Shown here: positions 6,494-14,447 of the stretch, in pieces
Numbering within the stretch: position 1 is the stretch's first letter
How the letters are laid out: each line of letters begins with the position of its first letter
Source: Pilasporangium apinafurcum
Taxonomy: Eukaryota; Oomycota; Peronosporomycetes; Pythiales; Pythiaceae
NCBI GenBank assembly: GCA_001600495.1
Contig: BCKE01000009.1
Location: 93,834 to 157,833, forward strand
Length of the DNA stretch: 64,000 nucleotides
Reading direction: 5' to 3'
Program-made: the position numbers and the translations under genes
The notes under the pieces: generated by a model
What the model was told of the DNA's origin: nothing
Database searches by the model: none
The model's input: only the letters and a program-made list of their open reading frames with translations

Positions 6494-7360
6494 TTATGCC
6501 ATGAGTCTGACGCTAGTGGAATAATTGTGATCGTTTTGCATGGCGTCTCGACTCCCATAGGCTGAGATCTAGAATGGGGCACAAAGTATATGCAACGGAT
6601 TAGGCCAGTTAGCCTTTATTACAAATTTTCATAATAATGGTGGGTTGCATACCTCAAAATCATACATGGCATTGGGAATATGCTCGATCGTCTGGACAAC
6701 CGATAGAATCTGTAGTAGTGAATGCTGCAGTGCAGTTTCCGTCTCCTCTGCCACCACCTCACACTCTGTATGAAATACAGCCATATAATATCATCGAGAA
6801 AATCCAAGTAGCGTCAAATTAATCAGAGAAAACCAACCTTCTGATGTCACAGCAACGCTGAGTGGCAAGACCCACTTCTCAAAGACCAGCTTCTCCTCAT
6901 TTGACATCAAGCCGAATAGTGCTTTCTTCACCTTCCGCTCGAAAAACGTCACAACCACACAGCCGGTTACCGTTGAAGCAATTGTACTCCCATATGGTCC
7001 GCCTGGTCCTGCTGGCAGATTTGTTGGATGCGTCGCATGTACACTGTCTTCGAAACTGCGCACAGCGTGGTCTACTTTACGGCTAACGTCTCCCACCGCG
7101 CACAGCGCATACGTAATGCGTGGGAACGCATGGCAGGATGCCTCGCTGGGACGTACAGGTCCTGGGGCACGCGTGAAGAGAATCGTGTGCAACAATGCGG
7201 TGAGAACATCACCGATGTCCACCAATCGCACGGGAATTTCGTCTAATACATGTTCCTTCCATGGAAGCGTGCTCGAGGAGCCGTAAAGACCGATCGAACT
7301 GGTGGATGAACCGGGTGTAGAGGCCATTTGTGTGGATGGGGCATGCATACTGTGCATCAT
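6494..7360 (-). CDS. ATG101: Autophagy protein ATG101 (HORMA-type)
   Basis: Exons 6838-7360, 6653-6765 and 6494-6568 on the minus strand join in phase to give 236 residues from the first ATG, or 225 from the ATG at 7327; human ATG101 has 218. The N-terminal block EIPVRLVDIGDVLTALLHTI matches the start of ATG101, and later segments correspond to the family's central EE and basic blocks. The last short exon ends in a YSTSVRLM-type segment like the ATG101 C-terminus. ATG101 binds ATG13 in the ATG1/ULK initiation complex. The inverted-repeat end of a transposon lies only 20 bp upstream of the first ATG, so the promoter and 5' leader must sit largely inside the element. Either start codon is possible. 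The final exon is the least certain. Confidence 0.8.
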
Positions 7361-7379
7361 TCTTGTTCGTAGACTTCTT

Positions 7380-7572
7380 CGATGTCTTCTTGTACTAAAA
7401 TTCGTCTCAGGTAATAAGCAAAATATATTTTGTCAAAACCGGGTGTTTTGGGACTTCTCCACTTTTGGCATCTTCTTGAAACAACTGCTTATTAGAGAAA
7501 GAAAAAACCTATCGATTGAGGCAAATTTTGGATCTCTGGAAGAGACAAAATCACCTCGGAAGCATGGATAAT
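7380..7572 (+). repeat. Left terminal inverted repeat (193 bp)
   Basis: Identical to the reverse complement of 8568-8760. It begins CGATGTCTTCTTGTAC and lies directly upstream of ATG101, which is transcribed away from it. Confidence 0.92.
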
Positions 7573-8019
7573 TACAACTGGAAGAATACTATCAGAGACG
7601 ACTGCATTCCCCGTCATGGTCTTTATATCAGGATCTATGGAGTTCAACCAATTTCCGCCACGCTTTGCAGCATATAGACTTAGCTGAACAGAAACACAAG
7701 TAACTATGTTTGTTTGGTTTTGTTGATTTAATTGTTTTCTGCAAATCGCGCATGGATTTTGTTGTCTCAATCTCCACGGAGCAAATGCTTGCTTCTCTGG
7801 ACACTGTGTACCAGAGCTTTATTATGTTTCTTCGTAACACCAAATTGAAGAATAAATGCGTGCACTTCTTTTTTGATTGATTAATGTGAATTGATATTTC
7901 AAGAGAAAGTGCTAATGGTTTGATCTTGACCTGTTCAAGTAAAACACAGATTCTACAAACAGAATAAGTGGCACTCTGTTTTATATGGGAATTTGTAAGT
8001 GATGTCACCGATTGATTTG

Positions 8020-8292
8020 TCAATGATTGGCGACATCTATTTCCAGGAACTTCTCTTTGACTTTAATCCAATCGTCAACATGTTTCTTCCACTCTCTTTC
8101 ATCAAAGGTATCCATAACATGGTGAGCAAACGTCTCCATCTCTGCGAGAGAAACAGTACTGTTGCGTGTCGCTACGTAATGCTTGACGTAGAAGCAAACC
8201 ATCTCAATAGGATTCAATTCTGGATGACCTATTGAGAGGAGAAGCACTTCACAGGTCCATTTCTTGCCCCAAAATCTACGCTTAATACACAA
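8020..8292 (-). pseudogene. Transposase C-terminal fragment (end of DDE domain)
   Basis: Contains GHPELNPIEMV, the hallmark end of the Tc1/mariner DDE domain with its catalytic Glu, then a basic tail of about 60 residues. The upstream Asp motifs are absent, so roughly 100-150 codons appear deleted between this and the HTH fragment. Confidence 0.8.
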
Positions 8293-8333
8293 GATCGGGT
8301 TTGTTATTCTTACAAGTCAGTGTGAGCTCTACG

Positions 8334-8576
8334 CTAGTCAATTCCACCAAGTCCTCCACAGACTTCCATTAACCTTAACCTGATGGTCTGGGCACTGATG
8401 TCAAAGGAGTCCGTCGTTCGGAGGAGAGGGTGGGAAACTTTGTGCCAGTTTTTATCCCTCTCTTCTCGCTTCAAATACGATTTAGAATCATTGATTGCGA
8501 CCGCCATGTTATGCGAGATATTCCTAACTCTACGCTTTCTCTTCGAGATCTTGCTTGCTGTATTGCGATTATCCAT
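8334..8576 (-). pseudogene. Transposase N-terminal fragment (HTH part)
   Basis: About 80 codons from the ATG at 8576, which lies in the inverted repeat. The fragment is basic and carries a WHKVSHPLLRTTDSFDISAQ segment followed by TIRLRL, resembling the second helix-turn-helix of Tc1-type transposases. It stops at 8334, before any catalytic residue. It is the front half of the broken transposase in this element. Confidence 0.65.
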
Positions 8577-8760
8577 GCTTCCGAGGTGATTTTGTCTCTT
8601 CCAGAGATCCAAAATTTGCCTCAATCGATAGGTTTTTTCTTTCTCTAATAAGCAGTTGTTTCAAGAAGATGCCAAAAGTGGAGAAGTCCCAAAACACCCG
8701 GTTTTGACAAAATATATTTTGCTTATTACCTGAGACGAATTTTAGTACAAGAAGACATCG
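8568..8760 (-). repeat. Right terminal inverted repeat (193 bp)
   Basis: Reverse complement of the left repeat. The first in-frame ATG of the transposase N-terminal fragment (8576, minus strand) lies inside this repeat, so start codon and terminal repeat overlap. Confidence 0.92.
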
Positions 8761-8979
8761 GAAACTGTCACTATTACATACATTTTCATTTTAGTGACAT
8801 AATACATTGTGATTTTTATCCAATTGTAGAGTCTGGAACAATATTTCTTTCACATAAAAAAGCATTATGCTGCGTTTATTGGCTATAATTAGTGATAGAG
8901 ATTTTTGAGTAGTTATTAATGTACTGCACTGAACCCTGAGTGTCCAAAGAACAGGGAAACCCAGTGCACACATTCAAAA

Positions 8980-11696
8980 ATGGAGCGAAGCGCAGCGGCT
9001 GCGGAGGTGCCGCTTGCATCGTCCATAATGACCACCAGGTAACATAGCAGCCGGATAATACATGATAAATTTGATGCCAATGTGTCTTTCTATTGTTTTG
9101 TAGTGCAACTGGTCCAGAAAACTCCACTCTCACAACGACAGGAGCAACCTCAGTTCTGACAAGTGGACCTCCCAATGAAAACAACAGCGCTCCACCTTCA
9201 AGTGCTTTTGTTGTGGCGGTACCATCCATCAGAGCAAGAGGACGGGCACCTCTTACTGCTAAAGCTGATAAAACAGACCAATATATTCGTGAGATTAGTC
9301 AACGGAAGCGAACAACGAACGCGCGCATCATCCAGGAAGAACTGGCCCGTCGACATAACATCAAGCTCAGTTATGAGGTGATCAGAAGGCGGATAAAGAA
9401 AGCTGCTACTGTTGCATCAGCTGCAGCTGCTACTCTTACTAGTGAAGACAGTACTTCAAGCATGACTGATAGTACTAATACTACTCGGTTAGCTGCTACT
9501 AGTGAGCCAAACCAAGTTGCTGCTCCGACGGGTAGTGTACTAACTGCTGATAGGACGAAAGAACTGCATAAATCCTCGGATGAGTCGCAAAAGAAGCACA
9601 TAGAAGATCGTGGGTTCGCAGAAATCGCGAAAGACTTGGATATGCTTGCGGAAACTGTGCGTGTGATTGTGAACAACGTCACCCAGAGTCTGAATGACAA
9701 TGACGAAGAACAAGATATAGAACCAGCAGGCCAAGATACAGGAGCACAAGTCCAAAGCGTCGGCAGTCATGTTGTTGAGCAAGAAGCTGAGGTTGTCGCA
9801 CATGTTGAAGAAACCAACGAGCATGACGAGCACAACGATACAGAGCGCTTAGATGATAATTCAATGACTGTGGAGCATGATATCGACGGAGAGCCCGACG
9901 AGGAGCCAGCAAATATAGTTAATAGTCATAACATCTCCGATGAAGCTTTTGATAATGCTCACAAACGACGCTACGGGTACTCGCCGGCGATCCGGCAGTT
10001 GTGTGTGCAGAAAAACAATTCTGGAATGAATTATCGGCAGATCGCCGCTGAGCTAAACATGCCCGTTTCGTCGGTTCAGACAATCATCCGCAAAGCCAAA
10101 GCTGCAGGCGATGCAGTACCCCCACAGCGCGCCGGTCGTCCACGAGTGATTGATGACTCAGTAGAACAGCTTATATTTAAGTTTGTGCAGAAGAACCCCA
10201 ACGTCAGTGCTCGTAGCATTCACGACGAGCTAGCAAAGACACACCAGTTGGGCGGTGTTTCTTTCGAGACTATACGGCGGCGAGTACGCGATTGTAGGAA
10301 GAAAGTTATCGAATCTGCTCTGGGTGAAACAGATCCTCCATGTGCTAGTTCCACGAGTCTGATGGCCACAAGAAACAGCAACCAAGAGCTAGGAGTTACT
10401 TCCACCAGCGACGAAAGCTATGTAATTCCACAAGCTGAGTCTAGCGTGTTATCTTCGGCCACATCAGAGCAACCTGCGACAATTGCTTCAATTCCTTCAG
10501 TTTTGCCAGCCAAGAGGAAGAAAAACAGCGAATACTCGACTGAGATACGAGAACTGTGTGTGCACAAACACGAAGTGGAAGGACTGTCCTATGTAGCCAT
10601 CGCCAATGAGTTGTTGATTCCGCATGACACGGTACGAGCGATCGTACGCAAAGCGAAAAAGACGGGCACAGTCGTCTCAGCACCAAGAAGTGGTCGTCCA
10701 CGCAAAACGAGCGGTCTCATCGACAAAGTCATACTCCAAGCCGTGAAAACGAACCAGCGCTCGACCGCTAAGATGATTCAAGAAGATCTGTGGCGAATTT
10801 TTAATGTCAAAGTGTCCAGTGAAACCGTGCGTCGTCGAGTCAAAGCCCACACAAAGCAGCGGCTGCTTCTGTCGTCAGCAGGTGAAAAAGCAGAGAGCGG
10901 AGGACAAGAACATACAATTGCCGAGCATTCGTCCGAGTTACAAAGTATTATATCACCAGCATTAACAACTCAACCCGTGATACTATCAACAGCACCAGTC
11001 AATACGAGTTATGAAATGCAAGCTGCAGGTTTGGTGATACCTGAAGAAAATACTTTACTGAATCAAGTGTCACAACCAGTTCTGAACGCAGACCACACAA
11101 ATACAATTATCGAACTGCAACCACCACCTGCTAAGAAACGGAAGAAACGTGCGGATTATAGTATTGATCTGCGGGAAAAGTGTGTAGAACTGCATGCACA
11201 AGGTCATGGATATCGACGGATCGGTCAAGAGCTAGGCATGCCACACACTACAGTGCGAGCCATCGTGGAAAAAGTGCAGCGTACGGGTACAGTGCTCCCA
11301 GCACCACGTAGCGGGCGGCCACGAAAGACGAATGACATTCTTGATAAAGTTATACTACAGGCGGTCAAGACAAACCACAAGAGCTCGGCGCGCATGATCC
11401 AGGAAGAATTACTCACTGCATACGATGTGCGCGTGTCTTGTGAGACCATTCGCCGGCGTGTAAAAGACCATACACGACAACGCTATGCCTCTTCCGTTCC
11501 CTCGGTGTTCTTACCTGACCCTGTACCAGAATCTGTAGCGATGGGAACCAATGATCCTCCTCCTATGTCCGAGTCCGTACAAATGCATCAGCCTCCTCCA
11601 GATTTCTTGCAACAGCAGCAGCAACAGCTTGCTTCACCACCACCGACATCAGCTGCAGCAATGTTGGCGTCATATGCCGAATTCGTAACATTCTAA
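8980..11696 (+). CDS. Multi-module Tc1/paired-like HTH protein, no DDE domain (probable domesticated transposase)
   Basis: Two exons (8980-9038, 9104-11696) give 883 residues. Three complete bipartite DNA-binding modules lie at about residues 310-421, 495-605 and 704-812. Each starts with a Y-S-x-x-(I/L)-R helix-turn-helix, has a GRPR AT-hook-like linker, and ends in a second helix-turn-helix closing with (S)-x-E-T-(I/V)-R-R-R-V. This is the layout of the N-terminal DNA-binding half of Tc1/mariner transposases and of paired domains. A partial set, with the second half first (79-119) and then a first-half-like segment (170-212), precedes them. Long acidic, Ser/Thr-rich spacers separate the modules and a Gln/Pro-rich tail ends the protein. 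No DDE catalytic domain is present. The frame is intact, arguing for a working host DNA-binding protein. Targets unknown. Confidence 0.85.
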
Positions 11697-12353
11697 GTGG
11701 TTGTAGTTTTCCTTATTGAATTCTACAACATTCAATGCTGCTGGTTGGATTTCAGTGACATATCGCCTTCTTATCCATGCCTCTGAATGGCTAGAAGCAA
11801 ATACTGAGAGACAGCATGGGAGAAAACCTGAGTGCTCGTCTCGTTGTGATTCTTGCAAGTACACACACCAAACAGCGGATGGTGTATGAATGGCTAGAGA
11901 GCGATTTTGATGCAGGCGGTGATTAAATGGGAATGGTTGCATGTTATTGGAAAAGGTGCTGGTACAGGAATTGGCCGAATGGGTTGCAAATGTGCACATG
12001 TTTGTCCAATCTCTCCAGATAAGCTGTCCAAAGTGGGGTCATCAAGTGATCGGAGCACCGATAATTCCTCAGGACACTGGTAGACTTGCTGCGGGAGAAC
12101 TCATCATAGAGCCAAGAGCTACAATGATGAAATAGAAATTTCATCAACGAACCCAGTACTTGTCGATCATAGCTTGTAGCATTCATCTAAAAGAATGAGT
12201 GATGGCTGTGTTCGCCAAAGGATATGCTAACAAATAATCCCGAGCATAATAGTGAAGATGTACGATTCCTTCAAGCTTGAGCAGGTTCGTCATCGATTGA
12301 AGCGATTTTTCTCCCAAAAATTTGTTATAGGATATCAACCAAATGACAAATAT
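11697..12353. other. Intergenic between convergent genes, nothing recognised
   Basis: Holds the 3' flanks of the HTH-repeat gene and TRIP13. Short frames on both strands have no domain and poor coding character. No repeat or RNA gene was recognised. Confidence 0.4.
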
Positions 12354-14447
12354 CTATGCGGATGCAAGCATGCTCTTCTGTTCGTTCTCGACCACAATCG
12401 TTCGAATGACACTCTGAATAAACTCTAAAACTGTTGCTGATCGTCTCTGGTAGAGAGTGCCAGATTAGCTAAGTAATATAATGCCACAGAAAGGTAGTTA
12501 TAACGAAATCACTCGATTTTCACGCACCTGTACAAAAAATGCATGAGCCTGGAACGGGAGTTTTCGTAGTGCTCGACCGCTGTATCCTTCCGACATTTCT
12601 GCTGCTCGAAGTAATGCTGTGGATACTGCAAGTTCTTCATCGTTATCTAGCGTAATCTCACTTATCATTTGGTCTGCCAATCGCTTCTTCGAAGCTCTTT
12701 TCTTCATCAATGTGGAATAGGACCATATTGGCGATGAGCTCGGATGGATAATACCCACACGTTGTAGCTCATCCACACAACTTCGCAATATTTCATAGCG
12801 TGCATGTGCTACTGGAAGACCAATATACCTACAGACAACTCGGTCAGATCACCTGAAGCAATACAAGGAGATCAGCAGTTGAGCTTACTGCTTGATGTCA
12901 GCTCGGTCCACGAATGCCACGTCGACAGCTTCAGTAATATTTGATGTTGTTAACACTAGAACATTCGAATAGTTCTTCAACGAATCTAATTGCGTCAGCA
13001 AGGCATTGACGACCCGAATAGCATCAGAAGGTTCTGACCCACTCAGCGCCGCTTTTCGTGCTGCGGTGAGTGATTCCACTTCATCTAAAGAGTATAATCG
13101 TATAGTTCAGTATAAATTCACAAAAGCCTTATCAGAAACAACAGGCTTACCAATAAGAACGCAAACTAGCGTTTCCTCATCTTCTACTAATTCTTGAATT
13201 TGACGAAATAGCTTCATCACTAATTTCCCACTCTCAGAAAACCACTGGTCCAGATAGGTCACTTAGCAAAAATGCCATTACACAATAAGGAAACAGAGAC
13301 ACCATTACCTTGCTGAAGAGACTGTGTGCATTGATTTCAAGCAAATACGCATTCGGATATCTACATATCGTTGGGATCAGTGTCAGCCAATCTCTCCAGA
13401 AAATTTCCAAGGTACAATACGAACCTGTCCGACAATCGAATACTGAGTTTCTGAGCCAATGCTTTACACAGACTCGTTTTACCTGTGCCAGGAGGACCAT
13501 GAAGAAGGACAACTCTAATGTAGGAGATAATAACATAAATACCCAAATGAGTTGATGTACATTTTAAACAAGAGAAATCTCCACGTTGACCAACCGGTTC
13601 CAGGAGATTATATGTGGATTGACTTTTGAATCCGAAAAGAGCATGGCTGTAGTTGCGTATTCGAGGACATTCTTCTTGACAGAAGTGTCAAATATCAAGG
13701 AATCCCATAGTCCGTCCAAATACGTCGATGGGAGAATGAGTTGTTGACAGGTAGAAACACTTTCATCGTCCTCCGTTGTTTCCTCGGCAGCTGGCTCCTG
13801 TATTGATAAAGCACAGATCATGCGGTTGTTAATTACAAATAAACACGCTCGTATTGAGCGTAGATGTCATTGCACATACGTCGCAGAGTTTAAACACATG
13901 TACAAGTAAATGCACTTCCCAGTGCGGAGTCACACTGCTTCCATCTTCGTCGCCTTCATTATCTGCAACAAAAAACAGTAGTAGCTTAAAGCGTAAGCAT
14001 AGTGCTGACAACGAAGTATGCAATTCGTACCAGTCATTACCTAAATCCGTAATCTCGATGCGCTCAATGTGTTCCACCAAGAATGGCATATCTGCAAAAT
14101 CCACTATTCCTGAATTATAAACGCCATAAAATCGTCGCAACGAGAAATTTATCATCACAATATGCATTCATAAAGCAGGAAGCAAAGATATTGCCGTGGT
14201 TTTTTCTATTCACTGTGTGTCTACCTTTGTTCAAGATGCTCGTACGGGAAGTCAAGAACTCCATCACTTGAGCCTTTATATGATCATACTCAATGACACT
14301 TTCCTGCTTTATACAGACTTCCACTGCATCCAAACACACACACACGTGAAGAAGACGATATGCCCACACACAGCAGTCATATAAATATGTACTCTGCTCA
14401 CCATGAACAGGCTTCTTCATCTGCGCATCTGCCTGCTGCATCCTCAT
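12354..14447 (-). CDS. TRIP13: TRIP13/PCH2 AAA+ ATPase
   Basis: Eleven exons on the minus strand (14402-14447, 14246-14323, 14041-14109, 13880-13962, 13595-13797, 13425-13514, 13309-13360, 13151-13244, 12889-13084, 12528-12828, 12354-12446) join in phase to 434 residues; human TRIP13 has 432. The Walker A motif GPPGTGKT sits in [20 protein letters not shown]. Walker B is CVLIDEVE, sensor 1 is TTSNITE, and [15 protein letters not shown] follows. The GLWDSL(I/V)(F/Y) and ITWNR-like landmarks before the AAA domain are present. TRIP13/PCH2 remodels HORMA-domain proteins such as MAD2 and HORMADs in the spindle checkpoint and meiosis. The start is the first ATG of exon 1; a further upstream exon cannot be excluded. 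It is one of the most intron-dense genes here. Confidence 0.93.

Follow-up and report, generated by a model that had tools for sequence, protein, structure and literature searches.

A candidate domesticated Tc1/Sleeping Beauty-type DNA-binding protein with three tandem modules in the oomycete Pilasporangium apinafurcum

Introduction

Can the DNA-binding half of a Tc1-type transposase, repeated several times within one protein, have become part of a host gene? This question is raised by a locus of Pilasporangium apinafurcum located in the window, i.e. the whole stretch of 64,000 nucleotides analysed here (contig BCKE01000009.1 of assembly GCA_001600495.1, positions 93,834 to 157,833 of the forward strand); all positions given below are those of the window. 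A first-pass annotation had described a spliced, 883-residue open frame at this locus, with three full modules of two helix-turn-helix (HTH) units joined by a GRPR linker, a permuted partial fourth set and no catalytic half, and had regarded it as a host regulator under selection.

Gene structure

The 883-residue frame was reproduced. Joining 8980–9038 to 9104–11696 on the plus strand yields 2652 nt and 883 amino acids with no internal stop codon, and the main exon sits inside a stop-to-stop frame of 873 codons.

8980..9038, plus strand: proposed exon 1, which supplies the start codon and spans 19 codons and two further bases, joined in frame to exon 2
9039..9103, plus strand: proposed intron of 65 nt, GTAACA...TTTTGTAG, one of 56 stop-free start/splice combinations
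9104..11696, plus strand: main exon including the stop codon, 873-codon open frame

The proposed intron is plausible but unproven, being one of the 56 stop-free combinations obtained within the limits set for the enumeration (introns of 40–200 nt and a start after 8761). Its acceptor at 9103 has the best pyrimidine run among the acceptors, as judged by eye, and its donor, GTAACA, is weak relative to the consensus. A RED-like unit (see below) precedes the next in-frame ATG (9462), and translation of that unit would therefore require some start farther upstream; for this reason, we do not favour an intronless product of 744 aa starting at 9462, from which the unit would be absent. A chance open frame is ruled out by the 873 codons together with the independent Pfam matches. 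Codon usage provides weak coding support, the score of the gene being 0.012 compared with −0.044 and −0.040 for its other two reading frames and lying near the low end of the values of 11 neighbouring frames (−0.013 to 0.07).

Three Tc1/Sleeping Beauty-type modules

Three full modules, each of ~118 aa with two HTH units flanking a GRPR linker, were confirmed by independent Pfam profiles.

9960..10307, plus strand: module 1, PAI, GRPR linker, RED (aa 306–421); HTH_SB, HTH_32
10509..10865, plus strand: module 2, PAI, GRPR linker, RED (aa 489–607); HTH_SB, HTH_32, HTH_Tnp_Tc3_2
11133..11486, plus strand: module 3, PAI, GRPR linker, RED (aa 697–814); HTH_SB, HTH_32, structural model, Foldseek

In the whole-protein scan, HTH_SB scored 124.3 bits (three stretches), HTH_32 100.2 bits (four stretches), and HTH_Tnp_Tc3_2 60.1 bits (four stretches), the cut-offs being 43, 33.7, and 31.5 bits, respectively. 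When the modules were compared with Tc1/mariner and paired-domain profiles, as the first-pass annotation had suggested, each of them matched these three families in the order of the Tc1/Sleeping Beauty DNA-binding half. Taken singly, module 1 exceeds both cut-offs (HTH_SB, 44.2 bits; HTH_32, 43.2 bits), module 3 scores 52.7 and 36.1 bits, and module 2 scores 37.4 bits with HTH_32 but misses the HTH_SB cut-off (36.7 bits), whereas the HTH_Tnp_Tc3_2 scores of modules 1, 2, and 3 (20.5, 30.0, and 29.8 bits) are all below the cut-off. The PAX profile (PF00292; cut-off 22 bits) is matched by the whole protein at 27.9 bits and by modules 1 and 3 singly at 19.2 and 18.2 bits, and module 2 is absent from its matches at E <= 10; in the genome search, the PAX scores of this gene were 17.6 and 17.1 bits, below the cut-off. 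The amino acid sequences of modules 2 and 1 are 60 and 39% identical, respectively, to that of module 3, and GRPR is identical in all three. The RED recognition helix is well kept (6–8 of 10 residues between module pairs), and the PAI recognition helix varies more (9, 3, and 6 of 14).

Additional units, acidic stretches, and the tail

Outside the modules, the following segments were identified.

9240..9404, plus strand: extra RED-like HTH unit (aa 66–120), with GRAP replacing GRPR; 29.8 bits, shuffles
9588..9686, plus strand: degenerate PAI-like unit (aa 182–214), doubtful; 9.6 bits, shuffles, two-helix model
9717..9953, plus strand: acidic stretch (aa 225–303), net charge −23 by charge count
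11487..11693, plus strand: Pro/Gln-rich C-terminal tail (aa 815–883), 13 P and 8 Q, net charge −6

The permuted partial fourth set described earlier is thus reduced to one clear stray RED unit and a doubtful PAI unit. Against a profile built from the three modules, the RED-like unit scores 29.8 bits; the observed score of aa 1–150 (33.8) was reached by none of 5000 shuffles, the best of which scored 9.7. Its HTH_Tnp_Tc3_2 score (20.3 bits) is below the cut-off of 31.5. The PAI-like unit scores 9.6 bits against the three-module profile, and the observed score of aa 131–305 (13.1) was also reached by none of 5000 shuffles, albeit narrowly (best shuffle, 10.7). Since the AlphaFold2 model of this unit has two helices rather than three (mean pLDDT 71.0) and the surrounding segment, aa 168–224, is acidic overall (net charge −7), we doubt that it binds DNA. 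In the order RED, PAI, and then three PAI–RED sets, the first two units may be what is left of one or two older modules.

The modules carry net charges of +14 to +16, and the linkers between them −7 and −9; the acidic stretch at aa 225–303 is a possible activation region. A 21-nt direct repeat (95% identity) connects 9321–9341 in the stray RED-like unit with 11388–11408 in the RED unit of module 3. Its occurrence despite near-saturated third positions between the full modules may be coincidental or may stem from gene conversion or from a common choice of codons.

No catalytic half detected

In agreement with the first-pass annotation, no catalytic half was detected: a DDE domain was found neither by Pfam nor by a DDE_3 search of the genome. 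The best 25 of 31 Pfam matches listed for the whole protein include no DDE family, nor do the complete Pfam lists for its five pieces, and none of the 59 DDE_3 places found in the genome (a lower bound) is located on the contig of this gene. In addition, the HTH_Tnp_Tc3_2 match in this gene stops at profile position 41–43 of 72, which indicates that the segment leading into the catalytic half is missing; elsewhere in the genome, 22 of the 25 places listed extend to position 61 or beyond.

Predicted structure

Module 3 alone was modelled by AlphaFold2 with a three-row alignment (mean pLDDT 76.0, pTM 0.44). The model contains two three-helix subdomains in paired-domain order, with helices at 11–22, 27–34, and 38–51 and at 68–80, 86–97, and 103–117. 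These predicted helices are close to the positions given for Sleeping Beauty in the available text of PMC7827188 (12–22, 29–33, and 39–55 and 67–77, 84–93, and 100–109). The first five Foldseek matches of the model were, in rank order, Pax5, Prd, Pax6, Tc3, and SETMAR, with TM-scores of 0.34–0.43 by query length and rmsd values >10, as expected if the two subdomains sit differently; only 1 of 701 matches, that to Pax5, had E <= 0.001. In a sequence profile search of the PDB, two Sleeping Beauty PAI entries ranked at the top (4.1e-09 and 8.3e-08), followed by Pax5 (0.012) and Prd (0.016).

Age of the duplications and coding constraint

The modules are homologous but not identical, and the view that their duplications are not recent is borne out by the codon positions. 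Third positions differ by 66–69% in all three module pairs and second positions by 26–38%. Between modules 2 and 3, third positions differ at 82 of 118 codons and second positions at 31 of 118 (p 3.6e-11); p was 2.1e-5 for each of the other two pairs. Since NG86 and LWL85 gave dS values between the modules that were either undefined or well in excess of 1 (dN, 0.39–0.64), counts by codon position were used. Under drift like that of third positions, the identity to module 3 would be ~8% (1000 draws, maximum 19%), compared with the 60% observed. Third positions that differ by 66–69% while amino acid identities of 60 and 39% persist indicate that the duplications are old and that the protein has been kept by selection, and a recent tandem duplication is ruled out. 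This constraint is measured between modules within one gene and therefore bears on their longer history rather than on the very recent past, in which function may have been lost, although the frame is intact.

Genomic context and copy number

Within the window, Pfam recognises ATG101 (6791–7360, opposite strand to this gene) and a HECT-domain protein as neighbours; DnaJ-like and kinase-like frames nearby were named by eye. An element at 7380–8760, with 198-nt inverted arms that are 99% complementary, lies between ATG101 and the gene, with ~20 bp separating it from the first ATG in the frame of ATG101. Similar DNA gave at least 39 matches on 10 contigs (its own place, arms, and contig counted in). 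Its minus strand has a decayed stretch that, by eye, looks like the terminal part of a DDE transposase; two pieces of this stretch matched no Pfam family at E <= 0.01. The gene is not a part of this element, the arms of which end at 8760, ~220 bp before the start codon at 8980, but the element may have altered a promoter shared with the gene. The inverted pairs found around the gene (6500–14000) were all weak, one of 26 nt at 73% and another of 20 nt at 80%, and, with the single full copy found (see below), the gene shows neither the terminal inverted repeats nor the multicopy state of Tc1/mariner elements.

The search of the 36.5-Mb genome, some stretches of which were replaced by N, scores the best candidates only, and all counts are therefore lower bounds. 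Long frames on contig C11 owe their length to such N stretches and were set aside. With the 744 aa from 9462 as query, one full place was found, i.e. the gene itself; the only other match listed was weak and partial, at the end of contig C48. This single full copy is consistent with a host gene, as is the presence in the window of the Pfam-recognised cellular genes ATG101 and HECT. HTH_SB was found at at least six places, three of them inside this gene, and the two above the cut-off are both in this gene. For HTH_32, at least 16 places were found, and the three above the cut-off are all in this gene. At least 28 HTH_Tnp_Tc3_2 places were found, including three in this gene (none of the three above the cut-off) and at least five within open frames of 407 aa. 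One of these 407-aa frames (339 aa from its first Met) matches DDE_3, HTH_38, HTH_Tnp_Tc3_2, and HTH_32 in Pfam, and HTH_SB was not matched in the same 339 aa at E <= 1.

Two further frames that resemble transposase-type HTH proteins lacking a catalytic domain were noted. A 231-aa frame on contig C76 (~95.6–96.3 kb; L032 564–1259, minus strand) matches HTH_Tnp_Tc3_1 at 27.0 bits (cut-off 21.1); its RED-like second half, as seen by eye, is interrupted by an insert rich in proline and glutamine, and no DDE family was found by Pfam at E <= 1. It is a candidate for a second domesticated DNA-binding half. A 349-aa frame on contig C12 (~273 kb; L050 955–2004, minus strand) matches PAX at 20.0 bits, below the cut-off of 22, and has one PAI-like HTH after a basic stretch, a second HTH not being seen by eye; the genome search placed no DDE_3 match there. 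Judging from these two frames, transposase DNA-binding halves may have been re-used repeatedly in this genome; neither frame is multiplied, however, and among the frames inspected only the present gene has multiplied modules. On contig C8 (~22–27 kb; L054 and L055), adjoining related frames with a CENP-B-type HTH, as judged by eye, are apparently tandem duplicates.

Scans of viral and prokaryote contigs yielded 69 and 115 pattern matches, respectively, and no relatives; a bacterial or viral origin is unsupported in both scans, a weak test with two strict peptide patterns each.

Discussion

The gene is intact and, as a lower bound, single-copy, with coding constraint between its modules and no catalytic domain, a combination that characterises a domesticated regulator. 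We consider it probable that it encodes a domesticated DNA-binding half of Tc1/Sleeping Beauty type, amplified in tandem, and that the protein now acts for the cell as a multivalent regulator with sequence-specific DNA binding. The earlier suggestion of a selected host regulator is thereby sustained as to the constraint and the single full copy, which fits a host gene, while DNA binding, multivalency, a nuclear location, and a regulatory output are what we infer from the sequence. More tentatively, the protein may be an independent, non-animal counterpart of Pax, in which a Sleeping Beauty-type half took on a regulatory role and was amplified, yielding a reader of clustered sites with three modules.

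In such a reader, the PAI recognition helix would lie in the major groove, as in Sleeping Beauty or Pax, with GRPR in the minor groove and the RED helix in the following major groove. The three basic modules, connected by acidic and presumably flexible linkers, could hold several neighbouring or looped sites together, which would raise affinity and favour clustered sites; related RED and partly differing PAI half-sites would make clustered composite targets likely. The acidic and Pro/Gln-rich stretches might then recruit or block the transcription machinery, and the sequence is compatible with either activation or repression. In Sleeping Beauty, according to the sections of PMC7827188 available, base recognition depends mainly on the PAI unit, and protein contacts are made by both units. 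Similar PAI/RED protein contacts could assist the modules here, too.

The most serious, though unlikely, alternative is a repressor of transposition, i.e. a catalytically dead, multivalent binder on Tc1-like terminal repeats that blocks the transposase or marks the elements for silencing. The DNA-binding half of a transposase alone can compete with the enzyme in other elements, and the genome is rich in DDE_3-type sequences (at least 59 places) and contains the 407-aa open frames, which hold at least five HTH_Tnp_Tc3_2 places. However, among the HTH_SB places found, only those of this gene exceed the cut-off, which also leaves the earlier idea of binding to inverted repeats of related elements unsupported; the 407-aa frame without an HTH_SB match suggests that the sites of its transposase probably differ, and long acidic stretches would be unnecessary for competition. 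A chromosomal structural protein that binds and bridges arrays of repeated sites in the manner of CENP-B is less probable still, even though several modules that resemble one another and retain the RED recognition helix would suit arrays of like sites and CENPB-type proteins are present in Phytophthora infestans, as stated in the available text of PMC11267843. A transposon gene without a host function, be it one for an accessory protein or several insertions that decayed into a composite, is very improbable: the sequence is transposon-derived and a dispersed element adjoins it at 7380–8760, but that element stops before the gene starts, the flanking inverted pairs are weak, one full copy was found, and 873 open codons with constraint between modules would not be expected.

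Comparison with known systems

Other HTH proteins and domestication events in the literature were compared with this gene. Psq and CENPB are the two HTH families described for P. infestans in the portion of PMC11267843 available, where 'paired' occurs once, in 'paired-end' only; these are oomycete HTH proteins as well, but of another HTH family. F-box genes have captured a Tc1/mariner HTH domain, likewise a host capture but as an F-box fusion (PMC12062965, in the main text of which the terms 'tandem' and 'oomycet' are absent). In the available texts, the paper on Crypton domestication, PMC3212892, covers oomycete Cryptons and contains neither 'paired' nor 'Tc1', and PMC10027918 contains neither 'pax' nor 'paired'. 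Among the titles and abstract openings of the open literature found, there was no multi-module Tc1-type DNA-binding protein from an oomycete, and those of the papers examined for 'HTH_Tnp_Tc3_2' did not contain the term. The three-module architecture as such was not encountered in that literature either, and, if our interpretation is correct, it adds a DNA-binding type undescribed in the accessible text of the P. infestans survey (PMC11267843).

The closest relatives are the Sleeping Beauty/Tc1 transposases (PF25787 and PF01498), with which the protein shares the bipartite HTH DNA-binding half in the order PAI, GR-rich linker, RED, six similarly placed helices in the predicted structure, and, in Sleeping Beauty, the best PDB sequence match of the profile. 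It differs from them in having three modules and no detectable DDE/D domain, and its linker is GRPR instead of the GRRR of Sleeping Beauty (PMC7827188, available text).

With the Pax family (PF00292; Pax5, Pax6, and Prd), the protein shares a DNA-binding half with no accompanying catalytic domain and, judging from the model of module 3, a bipartite two-HTH fold; it differs in that its single modules are below the PAX cut-off and are triplicated in tandem, and no homeobox family is present among the best 25 of 31 Pfam matches listed for the whole protein. Pax proteins are widely thought to have descended from a Tc1-like transposase, and the domestication proposed here would parallel that supposed origin. 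If this parallel holds, the gene would be a second Pax-like case, outside animals and with the module multiplied, with which it could be tested how such a domain turns into a regulator and whether multiplication substitutes for the partner domains of Pax.
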